64,000 nt of DNA, from assembly GCA_013178125.1 (NCBI GenBank), contig JABLXJ010000001.1:186001-250000 (forward strand), in the 5' to 3' direction. The DNA comes from Bacillota bacterium. Lineage in GTDB: Bacteria > Bacillota > SHA-98 > Ch115 > JABLXJ01. Under the pieces are notes generated by a model. The model made no database searches, had not been told where the DNA came from, and saw only the letters and a list, made by a program, of their open reading frames with translations. The first letter of the stretch is position 1; each line of letters begins with the position of its first letter. A program made the translations under genes and the position numbers. Below are positions 10,002 to 62,364 of this stretch, piece after piece.

Positions 10002-11684
10002 TCAGGCACAAGGGCCATTTGCATTTACCGCATTGTAGACCTCCAGGGTCTCCCTGGCACATTTCTCCCAGGAGAATCGTGAGGCCCTCCTGACCCCCCT
10101 TTCTATCAGCTCTTTTTGCAGGTAGTCCTTGGTTAATAGTTCGATAATGGCATCGCGTAGGTCATCCACCTGCTCCGGGTCCACGAGCAGTGCGGCATCA
10201 CCCACTATCTCAGGTAGGGACGAACGATTGGAGGCTATAACGGGCGTGCCGCACGCCATGGCTTCAAGGGGTGGGAGCCCGAGCCCCTCACATATGGAGG
10301 GATAAACAAGGAGGGTTGCTCCGTTATAAAGGTAAGGTAGTTCCTGATTCGGTACATAGCCCGTAATAAGCACCCTCTCTTGAACTTTCAGCTCACAAGC
10401 GAGCTTGAAGACCTCATCTGTATAGCCCGTCCTTTTGCCGACCAGGACGAGTGCGTAGGCCTCTTTTATATTCTCCGGCAACGCCGCGTATGCCCGCACC
10501 AAACCTGGGAGGTTGTTGTGGAAACTAAAGGCGCCGACAAATAAGATACAATCTTGCGATAGGGAAAACCGGTCGCGGAGCCATTTTTTGACCGCGCCTT
10601 CGGGTAAAACCTTGAAATGATTCTCTACACCGCCGTAAATCACCCGAAATTTCGCCTCAGGGAGGCCAAACATCATCATTGCGTCCTCTTTAATGTGTTT
10701 TGAAGTTGTAATGATAGCCCTGGCCCCCTTGAGGTATACGGGAAGGTTGGCCTCCATATGGTCTATAAACTCCGGGGGGTAGAATTTACGCGATTTTAAT
10801 GGAATTAGATCGTGGAGGGTAATTATATAGGGACAAAAAGGGGCTTCTCTGAAGGTTGCAAGCCCGTTGCGGGTGTTGTGAAAAAGGGTGACCTTGTGCT
10901 TTAGCAGGAATTGGGTCAATAGATGGGACTCCCAGAGGTCATCTCTGTACTTACCGGAATAGGCGAACAAGACATTTGAATGATCAGGGAATCCATATGG
11001 GGGTAAATCAGCTCTGAGGAGATAGTAGAGTGTTTCCGTATTAAGTGCCGCCATATATCTGATGAGATTATGCGTATACCGTCCGATCTCGCTCACACGG
11101 TCAAGGAGCTCCCGCGCGTCGATGGCAATACTTCTTCTGTATGAATCATGCCTGCGGACCTTCTTTGATGGCTCGTTTAACACCCTTATTTCAACTATGG
11201 GGGTTTTGACGAAAGCAACATTGTCGATCCACAACGTCCCTGTATCATGCATGCCCACCTGAAGGGTGACCCCTGAGACTCCGTCAGGTATATCAACGAG
11301 GCCGGCATATTGCTTCATTTCTTTACCTGCGCTAATGAATTTTAAATGATGCCAGCCAATCCAGTTGCCAGCAGGATCCCAGAAATGGGCCATTATTCTA
11401 AGGTGCTTACCGGGCTGATCCGATTTGATTTCAGCGCTTGCTTCCCACCTCTCGCCTGGCTCTACGCGGACGGTATAGTCTTTGGTTTGTATTATGCCGA
11501 CTGCAGTCCCCATAAATGTTGGATTGATGAGTTTAATCGACCTGGTCCCGTCAGATGGATGCTCTGTTGAATAAATCAGAGTCGTTCTCTCATCTCCATA
11601 GCCAGCATCCTGCCATCCTTCAGGCCATAGATTTCTTTGGCCCACCCGCTCGAAGCTGTGGTTGAAGACCCGGTTCTCAGTCAA
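10002..11684 (-). CDS. GT4-family glycosyltransferase with N-terminal carbohydrate-binding-like module
   Basis: A 560-residue protein. Residues about 1-165 form a beta-sandwich resembling CBM4/9-type galactose-binding-like modules: [12 protein letters not shown], then [10 protein letters not shown] and [12 protein letters not shown] near the end. There is no signal peptide. Residues about 185-556 are a complete GT4 domain: [33 protein letters not shown], and [20 protein letters not shown] with the E-x7-E pair, followed by [16 protein letters not shown]. Carbohydrate-binding modules are usually found on secreted hydrolases; their presence on a cytoplasmic transferase suggests acceptor-glycan binding. 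It is convergent with the paralogous gene at 8808. Confidence 0.85.
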
Positions 11685-36339: not shown

Positions 36340-38448
36340 TTGAAGTCTTCCATGGAGACACAGGAGATGAAAATACAGGGGACAGCAGCGACACCGGATA
36401 AGACGCGGGAAACGAGTCCAAAGGCACGGGATGCCGGCCCGCTGAAGCTCGCGATAGTCGGGAATCCCAACGTAGGCAAGAGCGTCATATTTAATAATCT
36501 TACAGGCCTTTATGCGACGGTGTCGAATTATCCAGGGACAACCGTGGAGATATCGCGCGGGAACGCGAGGGTAGGAGGCGTCGATTTTGAAGTCATAGAT
36601 ACCCCTGGGGCCTATTCGCTTCTCCCCATTACCGAGGAGGAGCGGGTTACGCGTCGCGTCCTGCTTGACGAGGGCGTGGACGTGGTAGTCCATGTGATTG
36701 ATGCGAAGAATGTGATCAGGATGTTGCCTTTCGCGTTACAACTCATTGAGGCCGGGCTGCCGGTGATCCTGGTGGTGAATATGGCCGACGAGGCTGAACA
36801 CCTTGGGATCAGGGTTGATGTGGAGCTCTTGGAGGAGCGCCTCGGGATTCCGGTGGTGCTCACGGCATCGACCACGGGCAGGGGTATGGAAGCCTTGAGA
36901 AGGAGGATAACAGAGTTCATTTCCAACCGCGGTGAATCTGGCTCTGAGCTCGGTAAAGCAGGGGCCGGAGCCGTAGAGTCTGGAGCTGAGCTTCGCCCGG
37001 TCTACAGCTACAGCGACCGGACGGAGAAGGCCATCGCGGCGGTTGAGGCCTTGCTGGAAGCAGATTATCCAGTATCTAGGAGGGCCGCCGCCATCATGCT
37101 CTTAAACGGCGAGGCTGAGATAGAGGCCCTTGTCTCGCAGAGGGAACGCCATGCTGGGGAGGTGCTCGAGCGGGTGGAAGCGATCGCCCGGGAGATTGAG
37201 GGGGATATGCCTTTTGCTTACTCCCTCGCAATGGAGCGCCAGGCCGCCGCTGCTGCGCTCGTTAAGGGCGTGTTAACTCGCGATACTCGACCGCGCCCGG
37301 CATCTGCGGGCTTATCAGGCTTTTTGAGCAGGCTGACCATGAACCCGCTTACGGGGATTCCCATTCTGATCCTGGTGCTCTATTTCGGGCTTTACCGGTT
37401 CGTCGGCGGGTTTGGAGCCGGGACGGTCGTTGACTTCCTTGAAACCGCGGTGTTTGAGAGGTGGGTCAACCCATTCGTGGATAACCTCGCCCGGGCATTC
37501 ATTCCTTATGAGGCCGTGCGGAGCCTCCTGGCGGGTGATTACGGCGTTATAACACTGGGGCTCAGGTATGCGGTGGCGATAGTGCTTCCAATCGTGGGAA
37601 GCTTCTTCCTGGTATTCTCGATCATTGAGGATTCAGGCTACCTGCCGAGGCTCGCGATGCTCGTTGACAGGGTATTCAAGGTGATAGGCCTCACGGGGCG
37701 CTCCGTGATCCCGATAACCCTGGGGTTCGGGTGCGGAACGATGGCAACGCTTGTGACGCGGACCCTCGAGACCAGGCGGGAGAGGATCATAGCGACATTG
37801 CTGCTTGCGCTCGCGATCCCGTGCTCGGCGCAGCTTGGCGTCATAATGGGGCTGCTTGCGGCGAGGCCAGGGACGCTCCTGGTCTGGGTGATCTTCGTCG
37901 GCGCCGCATTTGTTGTGACGGGCCGGCTTGCGGCCGTCCTGTTGCCTGGGGAGAGCCCGAGTTTTTATATGGAGCTACCACCCTTGAGGCTTCCCAGCGT
38001 GGCCAATGTGGTGAGCAAGACGCTGGCGAGGATGAAGTGGTACTTCCTCGAGATAGTGCCCATATTCATCCTAGCGAGCGTTCTCATATGGTTTGGGAAG
38101 CTCACGGGCCTGTTTGAGGTGGCCATAAGGCTCATAGAGCCCCTTGTGGTCGCCATGGGCCTGCCACCGGAGACCACGGTTGCATTTTTGTTTGGGTTCT
38201 TCCGGCGGGATTATGGGGCAGCGGGTCTTTACGACCTCGCGAAGGCCGGCGCCCTGTCAGGGAGACAGTTGGTAGTTGCGTCTATTGCCTTGACCCTCTT
38301 CATCCCGTGTATAGCACAGTTCTCGGTGATGATCAAGGAGAGGGGAATAGCAGTAGCCACCTTGATCGCGGCATTTGCTTTCTCCGCAGCATTTACAGTC
38401 GGGTACGTGGCAAACCTCATACTTGGTTCCCTGGGGGTGATCATGTGA
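36340..38448 (+). CDS. feoB: Ferrous iron transporter FeoB
   Basis: A 702-residue membrane GTPase-coupled Fe(II) importer. The cytoplasmic G domain has AIVGNPNVGKSVIFNNLTG (G1), YPGTTVE, DTPGAYSLLPIT (G3) and VVNMADEAEHLG (G4). It is followed by a helical guanine-dissociation-inhibitor-like part and a membrane domain from about residue 330 onward containing FGCGTMATLVTRTLETRRER and CSAQLGVIMGL, with Gate-like segments. The likely start is TTG 36340, nine bases after TAGGAGG; a 33-residue hydrophilic extension precedes the G domain. Its stop overlaps the feoA start (TGATG). Confidence 0.95.
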   Translation: MKSSMETQEMKIQGTAATPDKTRETSPKARDAGPLKLAIVGNPNVGKSVIFNNLTGLYATVSNYPGTTVEISRGNARVGGVDFEVIDTPGAYSLLPITEEERVTRRVLLDEGVDVVVHVIDAKNVIRMLPFALQLIEAGLPVILVVNMADEAEHLGIRVDVELLEERLGIPVVLTASTTGRGMEALRRRITEFISNRGESGSELGKAGAGAVESGAELRPVYSYSDRTEKAIAAVEALLEADYPVSRRAAAIMLLNGEAEIEALVSQRERHAGEVLERVEAIAREIEGDMPFAYSLAMERQAAAAALVKGVLTRDTRPRPASAGLSGFLSRLTMNPLTGIPILILVLYFGLYRFVGGFGAGTVVDFLETAVFERWVNPFVDNLARAFIPYEAVRSLLAGDYGVITLGLRYAVAIVLPIVGSFFLVFSIIEDSGYLPRLAMLVDRVFKVIGLTGRSVIPITLGFGCGTMATLVTRTLETRRERIIATLLLALAIPCSAQLGVIMGLLAARPGTLLVWVIFVGAAFVVTGRLAAVLLPGESPSFYMELPPLRLPSVANVVSKTLARMKWYFLEIVPIFILASVLIWFGKLTGLFEVAIRLIEPLVVAMGLPPETTVAFLFGFFRRDYGAAGLYDLAKAGALSGRQLVVASIALTLFIPCIAQFSVMIKERGIAVATLIAAFAFSAAFTVGYVANLILGSLGVIM

Positions 38449-41369: not shown

Positions 41370-41771
41370 ATGAGGAAATTCAACGTAATGCTCTTCGGCG
41401 ACAGGGCCGGCCGGGTCAGGTCGTTTGACCAGGAGAAGTCGAAGTACAGGGCGCTCAATCAACGCTACGCGGGGGTCAGGCCCATAGAGGTCGACAAGAT
41501 AGTCGGCAGCGTCGATCGCTGGGAGGAGCTCGACAGCAACTTCCAATGGAAGGGCCGGAAGGCCGATGAGAGAACCAGGCGCATCGAGGCCGCTCTCGAG
41601 AGGGGCGAGATCCTTCCACCGATCGAGGTATATGAGCTCGATGGGAAGTATTTCGTCGTCGATGGCCATCATAGAGTGGGCGCCGCCAAGAAGCTCGGCC
41701 AGGCTTACCTGGACGCCGATATAACCCAATTCTCGCCTGCCCAGGGCTATAGCGCTACCAGTTCGCTATAG
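41370..41771 (+). CDS. ParB/Srx-fold domain protein
   Basis: A 133-residue protein beginning at ATG 41370 behind GGAGGTGA. The C-terminal half carries a ParB N-terminal-like (ParB/sulfiredoxin) motif: EILPPIEVYELDGKYFVVDG, followed by HHRVGAAKKLG, the G-H-H-R signature of these nucleotide-binding folds. The N-terminal half is basic (FGDRAGRVRSFDQEKSKYRA). Stand-alone domains of this type occur widely in bacteria; some bind CTP or act as nucleases, but no specific role is shown here. It converges on, and overlaps by 6 bases, the phospholipase-like gene. Confidence 0.75.
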   Translation: MRKFNVMLFGDRAGRVRSFDQEKSKYRALNQRYAGVRPIEVDKIVGSVDRWEELDSNFQWKGRKADERTRRIEAALERGEILPPIEVYELDGKYFVVDGHHRVGAAKKLGQAYLDADITQFSPAQGYSATSSL

Positions 41772-42620
41772 CCCGGCAGGCGTTGGCAATGGCACTTCCA
41801 ATGATCCTTCCACCTCATTCTCATTACCCTCATCGCTCCCCTCATGACTGTCAGCCTTTGATATCAAGTCCACAAGCTCGAAAAACATTGCCATAAACCC
41901 TGCAGTGGTCCTCTGGGCGCGCAGGAGGAGGACTTTGCTTGCAGCCCGGTAATCTGATTCGCAGGAGCCGTCAGAGACCTTCGGGTACATGCTGTATGCG
42001 ATTAAGGCGTTGGATTTCACCCATTTGCCGGGGTCCTCTCCAAGGCCATACATCCCCTCGCCGGAGGCTGCATAGTCGGATTTGTGGCTGTCAGCCCAGG
42101 TTTCATACCTTTGATGCCCGTGAGTTATAATGGCGCGAGCGTGATGCGGGACGCATGAATCCTGTACTATGTGAAGCGCGGCTCCGAGCCAGAAGAAGCT
42201 CTGGTCCTGCCTCCCCGCACGCCACGCATCAAGGGAGCGCGCCAGGTGCCTGCGGCACTCAGTCACCGCGCTCGGCCAGCGCCAGAGGCCCCGGTTGGTG
42301 AAGGGGTTATAGTGGTGGCTTGCGTTTCTCCATCCCCGGTCGGCCCAATAGGTTCCTGAGGTAAGCTGCTCGAAGTTTCGTTTTAGGATATCCGCATACT
42401 GCCTGAAACCGTCGTTCTTGAGTGTTATAATACCCTGGACGTTACAGAAACGGTGGGTACCCCCTGCCCTATCCAGGAGTCGCTGCAGGGGTGTCCCCGC
42501 AACCTGCAGGATGCGCCCGATAGCGAGGCCTGAGTTATTCGCCAGCAGTTCCTTGAGCGAGGCCTGCCCTGGTCTTATCAGCTTCATGTGGTCTATTCGC
42601 CCCCTTGCCACCTCGACCAT
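41766..42620 (-). CDS. Zinc-dependent phospholipase C-like protein
   Basis: A protein of about 284 residues resembling bacterial phospholipase C/P1 nuclease, enzymes with a three-zinc site. Hallmarks include ASHHYNPFTNRG, FFWLGAALHIVQDSCVPHHAR (the H-x3-D-x3-P-H-H pattern), and HQRYETWAD with further ligands. A THRFCNVQGI segment lies N-terminally. No signal peptide can be seen from either candidate start (ATG 42620 or 42587), although family members are normally secreted. The C-terminus is an acidic Ser/Glu/Gly tail. The gene is divergent from the sigma-54 regulator and convergent with the ParB-like gene. Confidence 0.8.
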   Translation of the reverse strand: MVEVARGRIDHMKLIRPGQASLKELLANNSGLAIGRILQVAGTPLQRLLDRAGGTHRFCNVQGIITLKNDGFRQYADILKRNFEQLTSGTYWADRGWRNASHHYNPFTNRGLWRWPSAVTECRRHLARSLDAWRAGRQDQSFFWLGAALHIVQDSCVPHHARAIITHGHQRYETWADSHKSDYAASGEGMYGLGEDPGKWVKSNALIAYSMYPKVSDGSCESDYRAASKVLLLRAQRTTAGFMAMFFELVDLISKADSHEGSDEGNENEVEGSLEVPLPTPAGL

Positions 42621-42726: not shown

Positions 42727-44115
42727 GTGCGAGCGGGATCAGTGAGAACAATACCTGAAAGGTGTAAAGCCTGCGGTTCATGCGTGAGCGCATGCCCGAG
42801 TGGGGCGGTAGCTCTCGTTGGCCAGAGGGCGGTGGTTGATGGCTCGAGGTGCGAGGCATGCGGCAGGTGCATAGCGGCCTGCCCGAACAAGGCAAAAAAG
42901 ATGGCCTTCCCTAATCCTGCGCCCGAGGACATCCGGAAGGCTCTTTCCCTCATGGGGAGGCTCGAAGCCAGGGACCAGCTTGATTGCGGGGCCTGTGGCT
43001 TCGCAACCTGTTGGGAAAAGGCCATATCCGTTCTGAGGGGATTGAGCTTGCCAGATGCCTGCCTGCCCTACGCCATTTCGGAGCGACAGAATACGACCCG
43101 GGCCGGGGCTTCCAGGCCGGGAGAGGGGGCCATGGGCGAGGTGGGATCAGGCTTCGATTCTGATGCATCAATCGTGGCTTATAGCGTGGAAATGGGCAAA
43201 GTCCTTCAGCTTGCGGATAAGGTGGCCAGCGTTAGCTCTACTGTGCTGGTGCTCGGCGAATCGGGCACCGGCAAGGAGGTTGTAGCAAGGTATATTCACC
43301 GGACAGGTTGCCGCAAGGCAGGGCCCTTCATCAAGATCAATTGCGGCGCCATACCCGAAACCCTGCTGGAGTCGGAGCTATTTGGTTACGAGACGGGTGC
43401 GTTTACAGGCGCGAAACGCGAGGGCAAGCCTGGCATGATCGAGCTTGCCACAGGTGGCACCCTTTTCCTGGACGAGATCTCGGAGCTCCCCGTCAACCTC
43501 CAGGTCAAGCTCCTGCAGGTGATCCAGGAGAGACAGCTCGTCCGGATCGGGGGTATCAGGCCTATAGAAGTTGACATCCGTATTATCGCTGCAACCAACC
43601 GTGACATCCAGGCTATGGTGCGTGAGGGAACCTTCAGGGCTGACCTGTTTTACCGGCTGAATGTCGTGCCGGTCAGGGTCCCGCCGCTCCGTGAACGCAG
43701 GGATGATATCGTGCCCCTTATATATCATTTTCTTAAAAGGTTTAACCGGAAATACCAGCGGGATATATGCGTATCAGAAGAGGCCAAGAACCTGATGCTG
43801 GCATATGATTGGCCCGGCAATGTGCGCGAGCTGGAGAACCTCATGGAGCGGCTGGTGGTCACCATCGATGCGCCGGCCATCCTGCCGTGCCACCTGCCCG
43901 ATGAGATACAGGGAGAGGGGAGGGGGAGTGCCGAGCCCTGCGAGGGAACGGTCTATGTCAGGGGAATCCTGCCCCTCAAGGAGGCGACGGAAGAGGTTGA
44001 GCGCCAGATAATCGCCAGGGCGCTGGAGAGGAATGAAAGCACTTACCAGATCGCAAAGCTGCTGGGCGTCAACCAGTCGACGGTGGTGCGCAAGATCCAG
44101 AAGTATGCCAGGTGA
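42727..44115 (+). CDS. Sigma-54-dependent activator with ferredoxin and Fe-S sensor domains
   Basis: A 462-residue enhancer-binding protein. Residues about 8-60 form a 2[4Fe-4S] ferredoxin domain (CKACGSCVSACPSGAV, CEACGRCIAACPNKA). Residues about 75-115 are a four-Cys Fe-S domain of the PF04060 type (LDCGACGFATCWEKA, LPDACLPY). The AAA+ domain follows: GESGTGKEVVARYIH, the sigma-54 contact loop ETGAFTGAK, Walker B GGTLFLDEISEL, and RLNVVPVRVPPLRER. It ends in a Fis-type helix-turn-helix (STYQIAKLLGVNQSTVVRKI). The start is GTG 42727 after GGGGGAG; TTG 42697 is an alternative. Adjacent to a sigma-54 promoter and hydrogenase genes, it is a probable redox-sensing hydrogenase regulator. Confidence 0.92.
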   Translation: MRAGSVRTIPERCKACGSCVSACPSGAVALVGQRAVVDGSRCEACGRCIAACPNKAKKMAFPNPAPEDIRKALSLMGRLEARDQLDCGACGFATCWEKAISVLRGLSLPDACLPYAISERQNTTRAGASRPGEGAMGEVGSGFDSDASIVAYSVEMGKVLQLADKVASVSSTVLVLGESGTGKEVVARYIHRTGCRKAGPFIKINCGAIPETLLESELFGYETGAFTGAKREGKPGMIELATGGTLFLDEISELPVNLQVKLLQVIQERQLVRIGGIRPIEVDIRIIAATNRDIQAMVREGTFRADLFYRLNVVPVRVPPLRERRDDIVPLIYHFLKRFNRKYQRDICVSEEAKNLMLAYDWPGNVRELENLMERLVVTIDAPAILPCHLPDEIQGEGRGSAEPCEGTVYVRGILPLKEATEEVERQIIARALERNESTYQIAKLLGVNQSTVVRKIQKYAR

Positions 44116-44329
44116 ATCAGACCGCCTGGACAACTTCGCCTGGATAGCCTGGCCTGTGGTAGGGGGAGGCGGGATAATGCATTCTTGCATTTTTAATGCA
44201 CTGGGACATTGCCGGGGTCCGGCCCTGCCGGCTGGGGCGAAGTAGGACCGGGAAGGCTGCGTAATGCATATCAGCATCACGAAGGGGGAAGGGGCTGGCC
44301 CCTTGAGCACCCTGCCGCGAGATCCAGTG

Positions 44330-44359
44330 GAATCCTTGTGAAGGAATTCACAAGGATTC
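44330..44359. promoter_or_regulatory. 13-bp inverted repeat, probable activator site
   Basis: GAATCCTTGTGAA at 44330-44342 and its exact inverted copy TTCACAAGGATTC at 44347-44359 with a 4-base spacer. Its centre is about 80 bases before the expected start of the sigma-54 promoter, a usual place for an enhancer-binding protein site. No T run follows, so a terminator is less likely. Confidence 0.7.
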
Positions 44360-44399
44360 TGCGTTTCTACAGGTTGTCCTGGTCGCCCCCATGCCAACC

Positions 44400-44414
44400 T
44401 GGCATATTCCTTGC
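44400..44414 (+). promoter_or_regulatory. Sigma-54 (-24/-12) promoter of the hydrogenase operon
   Basis: TGGCATATTCCTTGC matches the consensus TGGCAC-N5-TTGC, with GG and GC exactly 10 bases apart. Transcription would start near 44426, about 70 bases before the first hyd gene. The gene immediately upstream encodes a sigma-54 activator. The rest of the 381-base gap 44116-44496 holds only the inverted repeat at 44330. Confidence 0.85.
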
Positions 44415-44496
44415 GTAATGAAAAGGGTGAGACTATGCGGACCTCTGGCTTTGCGGATTATTCAGGCAATCTATCAGGTAGGAGGGTTTGATCTAC

Positions 44497-44991
44497 ATGG
44501 CGTGCGAGGAGTGCAGGTGTTCAGAAGGGATCACGCAGGAGCAGTGGGGGAAGCTCGATGAGATCATTGCAAAACACAGGGGGAGACAGGGGGCGCTGAT
44601 TCAAGTATTACATGAAGCTCAGGAATCAATCGGCTACCTGCCCAGGGAGGTCCAGGTGCGGGTGGCCGAGGGCCTCGATATCCCCCTCAGCGAGGTTTAC
44701 AGTGTTGCAACCTTTTACGCCCTTTTTTCCCTGAAGCCCAAGGGGCGCCACCAGCTAAATGTCTGCAAGGGGACGGCGTGTTATGTCCGGGGTGCTGACA
44801 GGATCCTTGAAAAGCTTGAAGACACGCTTGGCATTAAAGAGGGCGATACGACAAGTGACGGGAAGTTCTCCATTGAAGTTGTACGATGCATGGGGGCGTG
44901 CGGCCTCGGGCCTGTTATAAGGGTGGATGATGATATCTATGCCAGGTTGAAGCCGGATAAGGTCCCGGAGATTCTCAAGAAATACGAATAG
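44497..44991 (+). CDS. hydC: NuoE-like [2Fe-2S] subunit of bifurcating hydrogenase
   Basis: A 164-residue thioredoxin-like [2Fe-2S] protein related to complex I NuoE and HydC of trimeric bifurcating hydrogenases. Four cysteine ligands are present: NVCKGTACYVRGAD (C-x4-C) and VRCMGACGLGPV (C-x3-C), after the helical N-terminal part ALIQVLHEAQESIGYLP and VYSVATFYALF. It transfers electrons within the flavin subunit complex. I start at ATG 44497, ten bases after TAGGAGGG; the in-frame TTG at 44488 is too near the ribosome site. First gene behind the sigma-54 promoter. Confidence 0.93.
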   Translation: MACEECRCSEGITQEQWGKLDEIIAKHRGRQGALIQVLHEAQESIGYLPREVQVRVAEGLDIPLSEVYSVATFYALFSLKPKGRHQLNVCKGTACYVRGADRILEKLEDTLGIKEGDTTSDGKFSIEVVRCMGACGLGPVIRVDDDIYARLKPDKVPEILKKYE

Positions 44992-45163: not shown

Positions 45164-45646
45164 ATGTCAGGGTCTGTGCGGCGTATCAAGTCTCTCGAGG
45201 AGCTCAGGATCATCAAGGAAAAGGCCCGGAGGTCAATGGGGGTTGTGGCGGGCTGGCCGTCTGTGGTGGGGCCGGAACAGAGGACGCTCCATGGCGGCAC
45301 CAGCAGCACCAGCGGCGCCCCGGCGGCCAGGCCGGGTCGCGCCGGGACCAGGGTTACAATCCGGCTCGGCTCGTGCAGCATAGCGATGGGCGCAGACAGG
45401 GTGCTGAAGGCGATTGTCAAAGAGCTCTATAGCAGGGGTATCTGGGATGTATCGGTGAAGAAGACGGGGTGCCCCGGACTATGCGAGGGGGAGCCCTTTG
45501 TGGATGTGGAGCGGCCCGGCTGCCCCAGGGCCACCTACGCCTATGTGACCCCCGATATGGCCCGTCGCATAGTCGCCCAGCACATCGTGAATGGTTCAAT
45601 TGTTTCAGAATGGCTGGTTCAAAACACCCCTCTCGCGGGGGAATGA
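45164..45646 (+). CDS. Thioredoxin-like [2Fe-2S] ferredoxin-related protein
   Basis: A 160-residue protein whose C-terminal two-thirds resemble the thioredoxin-like ferredoxin domain at the start of NuoF/HydB. TGCPGLCEGEPFVDVERPG supplies the C-x3-C pair, but the other pair is incomplete: LGSCSIAMGADRV has one Cys where the family usually has C-x4-C. So only three of four expected ligands are visible, though another residue could fill in. A Ser/Gly/Ala/Pro-rich stretch at about residues 45-65 (GGTSSTSGAPAARPG) separates a short helical N-terminus from the domain. Similar small proteins occur in hydrogenase operons. Function uncertain; possibly an electron carrier or structural subunit. Confidence 0.75.
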   Translation: MSGSVRRIKSLEELRIIKEKARRSMGVVAGWPSVVGPEQRTLHGGTSSTSGAPAARPGRAGTRVTIRLGSCSIAMGADRVLKAIVKELYSRGIWDVSVKKTGCPGLCEGEPFVDVERPGCPRATYAYVTPDMARRIVAQHIVNGSIVSEWLVQNTPLAGE

Positions 45647-45688: not shown

Positions 45689-48600
45689 ATGGATTTCTTT
45701 AGAGCACACGTTCTTGTTTGCGGCGGGGCTGCATGCATCTCATCCGGGTGCAGGGACGTTCAGGAGGCCTTTGTTGAGGCGTTGAAGGAACACGGCCTCG
45801 ATAAGGAAATAAAGATCGTAACTACAGGGTGTATGGGGCCCTGCGACCTCGGGCCCCTGGCGATAGTGTATCCCGAGGGCGTGCTTTACCGGAAACTCAG
45901 GCCGGCGGACGCCAGGGAGATCGTTGAGGAACACCTGCTCAAGGGCCGCACGGTCAAGAGGCTTCTCTACGAGGAGCCGGCTACCGGTGAAGTTGTGCCA
46001 ACCTACAACGAGATGAGCTTTTTCAACCGCCAGGTGAGGATAGCGCTGCGCAACACCGGCAAGATCAACCCCCTCCTCATCGAGGAGTATATAGCGCTTG
46101 ACGGCTACGCGGCGCTCGCCAGGGTCCTCTCCGAGATGACGCCACAGGAGGTCATCGACGTTGTTAAACGTTCGGGCCTCAGGGGCCGCGGCGGCGGCGG
46201 ATTCCCGACCGGGCTCAAGTGGGAGTTCACGGCGAAGGCGCGCTCGGACCAGAAATACGTGGTGTGCAACGCCGATGAGGGCGACCCCGGGGCGTTCATG
46301 GACAGGAGCGTCCTGGAGGGCGACCCGCACAGCATTATAGAGGCCATGGCGATAGCGGGCTATGCCGTGGGCGCAAATCAGGGCTATATCTACGTCAGGG
46401 CTGAGTACCCCCTGGCGATAAAGCACCTGGATCACGCGATAAAGCAGGCGAGGGATTACGGGCTGCTCGGGAAGGATATCTTCGGCAAGGGCTTCGATTT
46501 TGATGTAGAGATCCGGGTGGGCGCCGGCGCCTTCGTCTGCGGCGAGGAGACCGCGCTTCTGGCTTCGATCGAGGGGCGCAGGGGTGAGCCGAGGCCGAGG
46601 CCGCCGTTCCCCGCAAATGAGGGGCTCTGGGGCAAGCCGACCCTGATCAATAACGTCGAGACATACGCCAATATCCCGGTGATAATCCTGAAGGGGCCCG
46701 AGTGGTTCGCCAGCATTGGGACTGAGAAGAGCAAGGGGACCAAGGTGTTTGCCCTGGCCGGGAAGATCAATAACACCGGCCTCGTGGAGGTTCCCATGGG
46801 GATGTCCCTCGGCGAAATCATCTTTGATATCGGCGGCGGCATCCCGGGGGGCAAGAAGTTCAAGGCGGCCCAGACCGGCGGCCCGTCCGGCGGGTGCATC
46901 CCCAAGGAGTATTTGAACGTCCCGGTGGATTATGATTCGCTCAAGGAGCTCGGAACCATCATGGGGTCGGGCGGTCTCATCATTATGGACGAGGATACGT
47001 GCATGGTGGACCTGGCCAAGTTCTTCCTGGAATTTACCCAGGACGAGTCCTGCGGTAAGTGCGCGCCGTGCCGGATCGGGACCAAGCGCATGCTCGAGAT
47101 CCTCACGCGGATAACGCGCGGTGAGGGCCGCGAAGGCGATGTCGAGCGGCTTATCAAGCTCGGGCAATGGATCAAGGAGACGGCCCTGTGCGGGCTGGGC
47201 CAGACCGCTCCGAATCCGGTGCTGACCACGATCCGCTATTTCAGGGACGAGTACGATGCGCACATACGCGACAAGAAATGCCCTGCCTCGGTGTGCGCGA
47301 GCCTATTCGAATCGGCCTGTCAAAACGCATGCCCCGCGGAGGTGGATGTGCCGCGGTATATCAGCCTGATCAGGCAGGGGAGATACGGCGAGGCGGTGGC
47401 GCTCATCAAGGAGAAGAACCCGCTGCCTGCGGTGTGCGGCAGAGTCTGCAATCACCCGTGCGAGTCGAAGTGCAGGAGGGGACAGCTCGATAGCCCCGTT
47501 GCGATTTGCGATCTCAAGCGGTTCGCTGCTGATTGGGAGCTTGAACACCCGCTCCCTGTCGAGGCTCCCACGAAGCGGAAGGGTGCCAAAGTTGCAATCA
47601 TAGGTTCCGGGCCTGCAGGCTTGTCCGCAGCGTATTACCTGGCGAAGCTCGGCTACGTCGTTACTATCTTTGAAGCCCTGCCTGTGGCGGGCGGGATGCT
47701 GGCTGTTGGGATACCCGAATACAGGCTTCCCAGGGATATCCTGCGCGCCGAGATCAGGGCCATAGAGGCGCTCGGGGTGGAGATCAGGACAGGCGTGGAG
47801 GTCGGCAGGGATATAACCCTGGACGAGATCAAGCGGCAGGGCTACGGCGCCGTATTTGTAGCGGTTGGAGCTAGCAAAGGCCAGGAGCTCGGCGTGCCGG
47901 GCGAAGACCTCGCAGGGGTGATGAATGCCCTCACGTTCCTGCGCCAGGTGAATCTCGGCCAGGAGGTGGAGGTCGGGGATAAGGTTGCTGTAATAGGTGG
48001 GGGCAATGCCGCAATCGATGCCGCGCGGACAGCATTGAGGCTTGGCGCCAGCGAGGTTCACATCATATACAGGAGGACGCGCGAGGAGATGCCCGCTGAG
48101 AAGGGTGAGATCGAGGAGGCTGGGCGCGAGGGCGTGAAGATTCATTACCTCCTCGCTCCTTCTGAGATCATCGGCAAGGATGGGCGCGTTGCGCGCATGG
48201 AATGCATCCGTATGACCCTCGGCGAGTTTGATAGGAGCGGCAGGCGGAAGCCGGTGCCTGTAGAGGGCTCGAAGTTCGTAATAGATGTGGATACTGTCAT
48301 ACCCGCTGTGAGCCAGGCCCCGGACTTGTCCTTCCTGGCGGGCCTGGAGGGCCCGGGAGGTATCGATGTCACGAAGTGGTCGACGGTCGTGGCTGACCCC
48401 CAGACGCTCGCGACCGGCGCGCCCGGGATCTTCGCGGGCGGCGATTGTGTCACAGGGCCGGATACGGTGATCCAGGCTATAGCGGCGGGGAGGAAGGCGG
48501 CAATAGCCATTGATAAGTACCTCGGGGGAGACGGTGTTATCGAGACTCACCCGGATCTCGGAAGGGAGCTCGCCGGCGAGCTTATTGAACACGAAATGGC

Positions 48601-48736
48601 AAGACGAGTACCGCGCGTCCTTCCCATTGAGAAACGGTGTTGCAATTTTGATGAAGTGGTGCTCGGGTTGACGGAGGCGGCGGCCGTCGAGGAAGCCAGC
48701 CGGTGCCTGAGATGCGATTTCAAGGAGCAGAACTGA
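45689..48736 (+). CDS. hydB: NuoF-type flavin subunit fused to a GltD/NfnB-type oxidoreductase (HydB-like)
   Basis: A 1015-residue protein. Residues about 1-95 are a thioredoxin-like [2Fe-2S] domain ([21 protein letters not shown]). Residues about 125-535 are Nuo[17 protein letters not shown] and [15 protein letters not shown] (FMN/NADH site), [12 protein letters not shown], and the [4Fe-4S] site [13 protein letters not shown]. Then, instead of the usual C-terminal ferredoxin domain, residues about 540-1000 form a GltD/NfnB module: [15 protein letters not shown] and [13 protein letters not shown] cluster ligands, FAD motif [22 protein letters not shown](P) motif [27 protein letters not shown], and [18 protein letters not shown]. 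This suggests two flavins and possible NADP(H) as well as NAD(H) coupling with H2. Confidence 0.92.
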
Positions 48737-48768: not shown

Positions 48769-50499
48769 ATGGATTTGGTGACCTTGACCATTGATGGGCA
48801 GAGAGTCCAGGTTCCCCGCGGCACCACGATACTGGAGGCTGCCGGGGCTGCTGGAGTTGATATACCCACCCTTTGTTACTTGAAGGATATAAATGTCGTC
48901 GGGTCGTGCCGCGTGTGCGTTGTTGAGGTTGAGGGGGCCAAGTCCCTGCAGGCGTCCTGCGTGACCCCGGTGGGCGAGGGAATGGTCGTGCGGACCAACA
49001 CGCCGGCCGTCAGGGAGGCCCGGAGGACAGTGCTTGAGCTGATCCTCTCCAACCACCCGTTTGAGTGCCTGACCTGCGTGCGCAACGGCAACTGCGAGCT
49101 CCAGGCGCTCGCTAACCGCTTCGGGATCCGGGATGTGGGGTACACCGGGGAGCGCGCGACCTTCGCGAGGGATGAGTCCACGCCGGCCATCGTGCGCGAT
49201 CCCAACAAGTGTATCCTCTGCAGGAGATGCATGAGCGTTTGCTCCAAGGTGCAGACGGCTTTTGCGCTGGCTCCGAATGGACGCGGCTTCAATTCCATGA
49301 TCGCACCGGCGTTCTTCGATGAGCTCTCGAATGTGGCCTGCGCTCAGTGCGGGCAGTGCGTCCTGGTGTGCCCTACGGGCGCGCTGAGCGAGAAGGATTC
49401 CACCCGGGAGGTTTGGGATGCCCTTGCTGATCCCAGGAAACACGTGGTGGTCCAGACCGCGCCAGCGGTGCGCGCGACCGTCGGGGAGGAATGCGGCCTG
49501 CCGGCGGGGACCCTCGTCACGGGTAATCTCGTGGCCGCCCTTCGCAGGCTGGGGTTCGACCGGGTCTTTGATACGGACTTCACGGCCGACCTCACGATCA
49601 TGGAGGAGGGCCACGAGCTGATAGAGCGGGTCGAGCACGGCGGCCGGCTGCCGATGATCACATCGTGCAGCCCGGGCTGGATAAAGTTCATAGAGCACTT
49701 CTACCCAGAGCTGTTGCCGCACCTCTCTACGTGCAAATCACCGCAGCAGATGTTCGGGGCGCTGGCCAAGACCTATTATGCCGAGAAGAGCGGCATCGAT
49801 CCCAAGGATATCTTCGTCGTCTCGATTATGCCATGTACCGCAAAGAAATTCGAGGCTAAACGGCCCGAGATGACCTCGAGCGGGTATCCCGACGTAGATG
49901 CGGTTCTGACCAGCCGCGAGCTGGGGCGGATGATCAGGGAGGCCGGCATAGACCTTGGAGCGATAGAGCCTGAGGATTATGACCTCCCGCTCGGCATCTC
50001 CACCGGCGCTGGGGTCATCTTCGGGGCGACAGGCGGCGTTATGGAAGCGGCCCTGCGGACGGTCTACGAGGTCGTGACTGGTAAGGAGCTTGCCAATGTT
50101 GACTTTGAGGATGTGAGGGGGCTCGCCGGCGTCAAGGAAGCCTCTGTTGACCTGGCGGGGCTTAACGCCAAGGTGGCCGTGGCGCATGGCCTTGGAAATG
50201 CGCGTAAGCTTCTGGATAAGGTGAAGAAAGGGGAGGCGCCCTACCATTTCATTGAGATCATGTGCTGCCCGGGCGGCTGCATCGGCGGTGGAGGCCAGCC
50301 CATACCGACTAATGACGAAATCCGGGCCAGGCGCATCGACGCGATCTACAGGGAGGACCGGGGGATGAAGCTCCGGAAGTCTCATGAGAACCCCGTGGTC
50401 CAGGAGCTTTACAGGGAGTTCCTGGGTAAGCCTCTTGGCCATAAGTCACATGAGCTGCTTCACACGCGATATACGGCACGCCCGAGGTATGCAGTCTGA
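48769..50499 (+). CDS. hydA: [FeFe]-hydrogenase catalytic subunit
   Basis: A 576-residue hydrogenase. The N-terminal accessory clusters are complete: a [2Fe-2S] domain (CYLKDINVVGSCRVCVVEV), the His-ligated [4Fe-4S] motif HPFECLTCVRNGNCELQ, and two [4Fe-4S] ferredoxin motifs (CILCRRCMSVCSK, CAQCGQCVLVCPTGA). H-cluster motifs are L1 TSCSPGW at 298-304 (canonical TSCCPGW), L2 MPCTAKKFE with C356, and L3 MCCPGGCIGGGGQP with C500 and C504. It is the third main subunit of the operon and needs the HydF maturase at the start of the window. The M3-type layout fits bifurcating HydABC enzymes. It ends before a strong hairpin. Confidence 0.97.
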   Translation: MDLVTLTIDGQRVQVPRGTTILEAAGAAGVDIPTLCYLKDINVVGSCRVCVVEVEGAKSLQASCVTPVGEGMVVRTNTPAVREARRTVLELILSNHPFECLTCVRNGNCELQALANRFGIRDVGYTGERATFARDESTPAIVRDPNKCILCRRCMSVCSKVQTAFALAPNGRGFNSMIAPAFFDELSNVACAQCGQCVLVCPTGALSEKDSTREVWDALADPRKHVVVQTAPAVRATVGEECGLPAGTLVTGNLVAALRRLGFDRVFDTDFTADLTIMEEGHELIERVEHGGRLPMITSCSPGWIKFIEHFYPELLPHLSTCKSPQQMFGALAKTYYAEKSGIDPKDIFVVSIMPCTAKKFEAKRPEMTSSGYPDVDAVLTSRELGRMIREAGIDLGAIEPEDYDLPLGISTGAGVIFGATGGVMEAALRTVYEVVTGKELANVDFEDVRGLAGVKEASVDLAGLNAKVAVAHGLGNARKLLDKVKKGEAPYHFIEIMCCPGGCIGGGGQPIPTNDEIRARRIDAIYREDRGMKLRKSHENPVVQELYREFLGKPLGHKSHELLHTRYTARPRYAV

Positions 50500-62338: not shown

Positions 62339-62364
62339 AGATGACGGCCTTTCGGCCGTCATCT
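62339..62364 (+). other. Hairpin after fakA
   Basis: AGATGACGGCC at 62339-62349 pairs perfectly with GGCCGTCATCT at 62354-62364 around TTTC. No T run follows; it may protect the 3' end or belong to the structured region downstream. Confidence 0.7.

Follow-up and report, generated by a model that had tools for sequence, protein, structure and literature searches.

Rex is a repressor that senses NADH. Rex operators have been described at the hyd/hnd hydrogenase promoters of Caldicellulosiruptor bescii, with the 18-bp dyad TTGTGAANNNNTTCACAA as operator consensus (PMC6391272), and Rex has been predicted to act at hnd of Solidesulfovibrio fructosivorans (PMC10084766). In Clostridium beijerinckii, adhA1 and adhA2 are controlled by sigma-54 and AdhR with three UAS and are also listed in the Rex regulon (PMC7017808), while the sigma-54 regulons of the Clostridiales have been sorted into 39 EBP groups (PMC6615313).

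We analyzed a stretch of 64,000 nucleotides (the window) from a Bacillota genome that carries an operon for a group A6 [FeFe]-hydrogenase next to a gene for a sigma-54 activator (Table 1). The catalytic subunit is accompanied by NuoE- and NuoF-like partners (PF01257 and PF01512), and a FeoB-type iron transporter gene lies upstream of the hydrogenase region at 36340-38448. Judging from the arrangement of the predicted sites, it is very likely that this NADH-linked hydrogenase is expressed from a dual-input promoter, in which sigma-54 and an Fe-S activator work with a Rex operator lying between them. The two distal dyads come first, followed by the proximal dyad, the Rex operator, the -24/-12 promoter and hndA; since the Rex site falls between the enhancers and the sigma-54 promoter, the operon is apparently wired both to the Fe-S activator and to the NADH level.

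Table 1. Features of the hydrogenase control region and operon, in window positions.
Feature	Position	Strand	Remark
Sigma-54 activator gene (bEBP)	42727-44115	+	GTG 42727 preferred as start; frame open from TTG 42697
Distal activator site 1 (candidate), ATGCATTCTTGCAT	44177-44190	.	distal pair conserved in relatives
Distal activator site 2 (candidate), ATGCACTGGGACAT	44196-44209	.	one mismatch
Proximal activator site 3 (candidate), ATGCATATCAGCAT	44264-44277	.	
16-pair RNA stem	44327-44362	+	two G-U pairs; Rex operator forms the upper part
Rex operator (predicted), TTGTGAA-GGAA-TTCACAA	44336-44353	.	exact match to the published consensus
-24/-12 sigma-54 promoter, TGGCATATTCCTTGC	44400-44414	+	exact GG-N10-GC spacing; start inferred near 44426
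hndA/hydC-like subunit, 2Fe-2S thioredoxin-like	44497-44991	+	first gene of the operon
Small 2Fe-2S ferredoxin-like protein	45164-45646	+	NCBIfam matches only, weak
NuoF-like subunit fused to GltD-like FAD/NAD(P) domain	45689-48736	+	1015 aa
[FeFe] hydrogenase catalytic subunit, group A6	48769-50499	+	NF040763, 936 bits (cut-off 765)

The -24/-12 promoter had been proposed in a preliminary description of this DNA, and both its place and its spacing held. A stricter consensus, TGGCAYRN4TTGC, gave one match in the window versus 0.11 expected. The same description had named a missing rpoN gene as grounds for doubt; the genome encodes RpoN in a 511-aa frame with a Sigma54_DBD match (E 3e-64). A search for a sigma-70 promoter near the operon returned one minus-strand match, which is within chance, and this candidate was dropped.

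Upstream of the promoter, GAATCCTTGTGAA-GGAA-TTCACAAGGATTC forms a repeat at 44330-44359 whose 13-bp arms (44330-44342 and 44347-44359) are complementary at 13/13 positions, as first described, except that the 4-base spacer makes it an inverted repeat and not a continuous palindrome. It is the sole perfect inverted repeat in the 64-kb window with arms of at least 13 and a loop of at most 12 bases. Its centre lies about 81 bases 5' of the inferred start (previously put at about 80), its end is 40 bp from the promoter, and the stop of the activator frame precedes it by 214 bases, in keeping with the earlier account. Genome-wide scans, made by pattern search only, found the full repeat as a single copy in the 3.48-Mb genome with up to three mismatches allowed; this rules out a regulon of the full 30-bp palindrome, which the preliminary description had suggested scanning for. 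The operator within the repeat is likewise the only exact match to the Rex consensus in the genome by pattern search. We conclude from its sequence and distribution that the repeat is almost certainly a Rex binding site and not an enhancer of the activator.

Comparison of the gap between the activator gene and hndA in 15 genomes revealed how the element is distributed. The exact pattern TTGTGA-N6-TCACAA occurred 10 times in the N-free gaps versus 0.0 in shuffles, and in families f1 and f3 an operator, exact or one change away from this pattern, lies upstream of hndA in 13/13 genomes. No Rex operator was found at this position in the f2 genomes G002 and G003 or in the outgroup loci L107-L110. 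The alignments show the dyads, the operator and the -24/-12 promoter as conserved islands; outside the 18-base core, which is kept in f1 and f3, the gap is poorly conserved, and f3 retains the core without the outer arms. The Rex sites of relatives often have one half-site that deviates at the inner base (TTGTGAC/T).

Rex was present in all 21 genomes searched, divided among subfamilies. This genome encodes two, identified by PF06971 matches on contigs C24 and C6, so that a Rex whose winged helix is intact is available, and with the homologue from G001 as query, Rex proved to be kin to solved Rex structures such as 3ikt, with the same RKDL helix. Rex of the RQDL type prefers TTGTTAA. The C6-type proteins form a clade with support of 98/98, and the operator occurred in 13/13 genomes with a C6-type Rex and in 0/6 where none was found, a co-occurrence that spans few independent lineages (f1 and f3 against f2 and the outgroups) and involves several incomplete metagenome assemblies, some of the outgroup genomes among them. 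The searches detected no C6-type Rex in G002 and G003, nor in the genomes to which L107, L108 and L110 belong, and for L109 no Rex of any kind was found. Among these genomes, then, the distribution of the repeat follows one Rex subfamily and not the activator.

The geometry of the repeat is also that of the classical CRP/FNR site, TGTGA-N6-TCACA, so that a CRP/FNR-family regulator might be its binder, and the genome does encode two CRP-like proteins, one of which has the CRP-like helix RETASRIL. However, the operator-bearing genomes G007, G010, G011, G012 and G016 have no relatives of the RETASRIL protein, whereas G002 and G003, both without the operator, do have them; on this distribution the CRP-like regulator was rejected. 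The outer T of TTGTGA, present in 19/19 aligned sites although the search pattern partly imposed it, also speaks against such a regulator. Binding by a CRP/FNR-family protein is thus very unlikely.

The activator combines two 4Fe-4S ferredoxin motifs and one FeS motif of PF04060 with an AAA+ domain (PF00158, E 5.7e-69), in which the translation shows GAFTGA, and with a C-terminal Fis-type HTH (HTH_50/HTH_8 matches), whose recognition helix reads LGVNQSTVVRK. The preliminary description had taken the repeat to be the enhancer to which this neighboring activator binds, and the repeat does precede a good -24/-12 promoter by a distance that would suit an enhancer, with the activator gene adjoining. 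Yet it is absent from G002, G003 and L107-L110, where the activator has the same recognition helix, the core of the repeat is the Rex consensus, and similar sites stand at promoters that this activator does not accompany: in G006, G014 and G008 near a gene of the CO dehydrogenase type, and in G008 also at an HdrA-like gene. Moreover, it is a different motif, ATGC-N6-GCAT, that tracks the activator. We therefore regard the enhancer assignment of the repeat as highly improbable.

The motif ATGC-N6-GCAT occurred 33 times in the N-free activator-to-hndA gaps of the 15 genomes versus 0.25 in shuffles, and in all gaps together the ATGC/GCAT dyad was found 37 times with a spacer of 6 and four times at the other spacers from 0 to 13 combined. 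The usual layout across relatives is a distal pair of dyads 19-20 bp apart (19 bp in the window) and one proximal dyad, and the dyads are kept in G002, G003 and L107-L110, where the Rex site is missing. Exact tandem pairs are rare, at most one per genome, and mark the hydrogenase locus in 10/11 genomes with a match. The helix LG[VI]NQSTVVRK is shared by activators with differing sensor domains, Fer4/FeS here and CBS-PAS in L107. At loci encoding the helix NQSTVVRK, at least two dyads lay nearby in 19/26 and at least one in 25/26, while loci with other helices had at least two in 1/10 (Fisher p 0.0017 against 19/26, uncorrected for relatedness). The true enhancers of the activator are thus likely the three ATGC-N6-GCAT dyads at 44177, 44196 and 44264. 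ATGC-N6-GCAT is a new candidate enhancer motif for sigma-54 activators that are defined by their helix and carry several kinds of sensor domain. The locus also illustrates that a conspicuous palindrome next to the gene of an activator can be mistaken for the enhancer of that activator. Of the complete control circuit announced at the outset, the promoter, rpoN, the adjoining activator and the operon stood; the second regulator and the true enhancers had been missing from it, so the circuit was not complete from sequence alone.

In L110, positions 324-2957 encode an activator that shares the helix and the enhancer motif and has Fer4, hydrogenase-like (PF02906), FeS and PAS domains. The activator of the window may have descended from a protein built in this way and been shortened.

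In the transcript, the repeat would fold as part of a 16-pair stem of -20.8 kcal/mol, so one may ask whether its sole role is to end the transcript of the activator gene as an intrinsic terminator. The stem is found in both genomes of the genus despite differing outer arms, in which two of the changes are compensatory and two are G-U-compatible; in G001 a T-run follows the stem. These features suggest an RNA structure in this genus. In the window, however, the T tail is weak and a terminator scan does not report the stem, and family f3 keeps the 18-bp core without the outer arms. That the repeat serves only as a terminator is scarcely credible. A weak terminator of the activator transcript is a possible function of the stem beside Rex binding, and such an additional role in this genus is plausible, though we lean slightly against it; with two sequences to support it and a weak tail in the window, the hairpin is only a side claim. 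Further strong hairpins with 11-bp arms, at 41744-41774 and 62339-62364, are probably terminators.

A second [FeFe] hydrogenase operon, on contig C5 of the same genome, offers a parallel to the Rex operator of the window. There the Rex-like sequence TTGTGAAAGTTGGCACAA overlaps the -24 element of TGGCACAAGTATTGC, a perfect -24/-12 promoter (L095, about 11636-11660, minus strand), and the arrangement is kept in G001 (L278, about 5681). It was the only further Rex-like site found to overlap a -24/-12 promoter in the genome. With Rex sites predicted at two hydrogenase operons, Rex is probably coupled to sigma-54 promoters at both.

Additional Rex-like sites were seen elsewhere. Both rex genes of this genome, on C24 (L093) and C6 (L094), lie within or beside further hydrogenase-like gene clusters, and a degenerate Rex-like site, TTGTGAAAGTGAGCACTA, upstream of the C6 rex cluster hints at autoregulation. 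In f3 relatives, Prismane/CO dehydrogenase-family and HdrA-like genes have Rex-like sites at or near their start (L235, about 6655; L236, about 5536; L237, about 6826). Also in f3, another hydrogenase cluster is preceded by two regulatory genes, one for a sensor kinase of hydrogenase-like type and one for a response regulator of the NtrC type (L229, 6748-10698; L230-L233), and in L229-L233 Rex-like sites are located at the sensor kinase start and upstream of the hydrogenase cluster.

The operator centre is 56.5 bp from the -24 G in the window and 55.5-58.5 bp in G001 and the g4 group; in the g5 group the distance to -24 is 45.5-46.5 bp, one helical turn less than in G001 and g4. A further operator of the g4 group stands at 11.5 bp from -24, beside the polymerase site. 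Because the operator of the window ends 46 bp before -24, repression there would not be a simple matter of Rex covering the promoter.

We propose the following mechanism, in which we infer what binds where, in which direction control runs and what the Fe-S domain senses. Sigma-54 RNA polymerase would sit at 44400-44414, and the Fe-S-domain activator would bind the three dyads and open the promoter by looping. At low NADH, Rex would occupy 44336-44353 and prevent activation, by occlusion where an operator touches -24 and presumably, at more distant operators such as that of the window, by interference with looping. When NADH rises, Rex would leave the operator, the activator would work, and the hydrogenase would be made and dispose of NADH electrons as H2. 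A bolder version, which we consider rather unlikely, is that Rex acts as an anti-enhancer that is held between enhancer and promoter on a fixed helix face and blocks the looping of the activator and not the binding of polymerase, with the hairpin as repressor site and transcript boundary in one; the same 18 bp form the top of the terminator-like hairpin in this genus, so the element could play both parts.

How does this locus compare with the known systems? The predicted operator shares its consensus, the kind of target and the expected NADH logic with the Rex sites of C. bescii and S. fructosivorans; here, however, it lies inside an enhancer-driven sigma-54 promoter, an arrangement that the available parts of PMC6391272 and PMC10084766 do not describe. 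The adhA1/adhA2 genes of C. beijerinckii are similar in that a redox gene is under a three-site sigma-54 activator and Rex. Their target is an alcohol dehydrogenase and not a hydrogenase, though, and loss of rex had only a modest effect (PMC7017808), while the UAS of AdhR are TGT/ACA repeats (PMC6615313), a different motif class from ATGC-N6-GCAT. The Clostridiales survey, which treats other Bacillota lineages than those of the present genomes, lists EBPs that carry Fer4, FeS and Fe_hyd_lg_C domains and, as here, several UAS that precede the promoter by 100-250 bp and lie beside the EBP gene; a term search of its main text returned no hydrogenase regulon, Rex or TGCAT string (PMC6615313). Rex at hyd/hnd, sigma-54 together with Rex at alcohol dehydrogenase genes, and Fe-S sigma-54 activators are thus known. 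Within the literature searched, what is new is how these parts are combined, the motif of the enhancers and where the operator lies, which makes the locus a variant of known parts: a specific proposed wiring of NADH sensing by Rex and Fe-S activation on one hydrogenase promoter in little-studied Bacillota.
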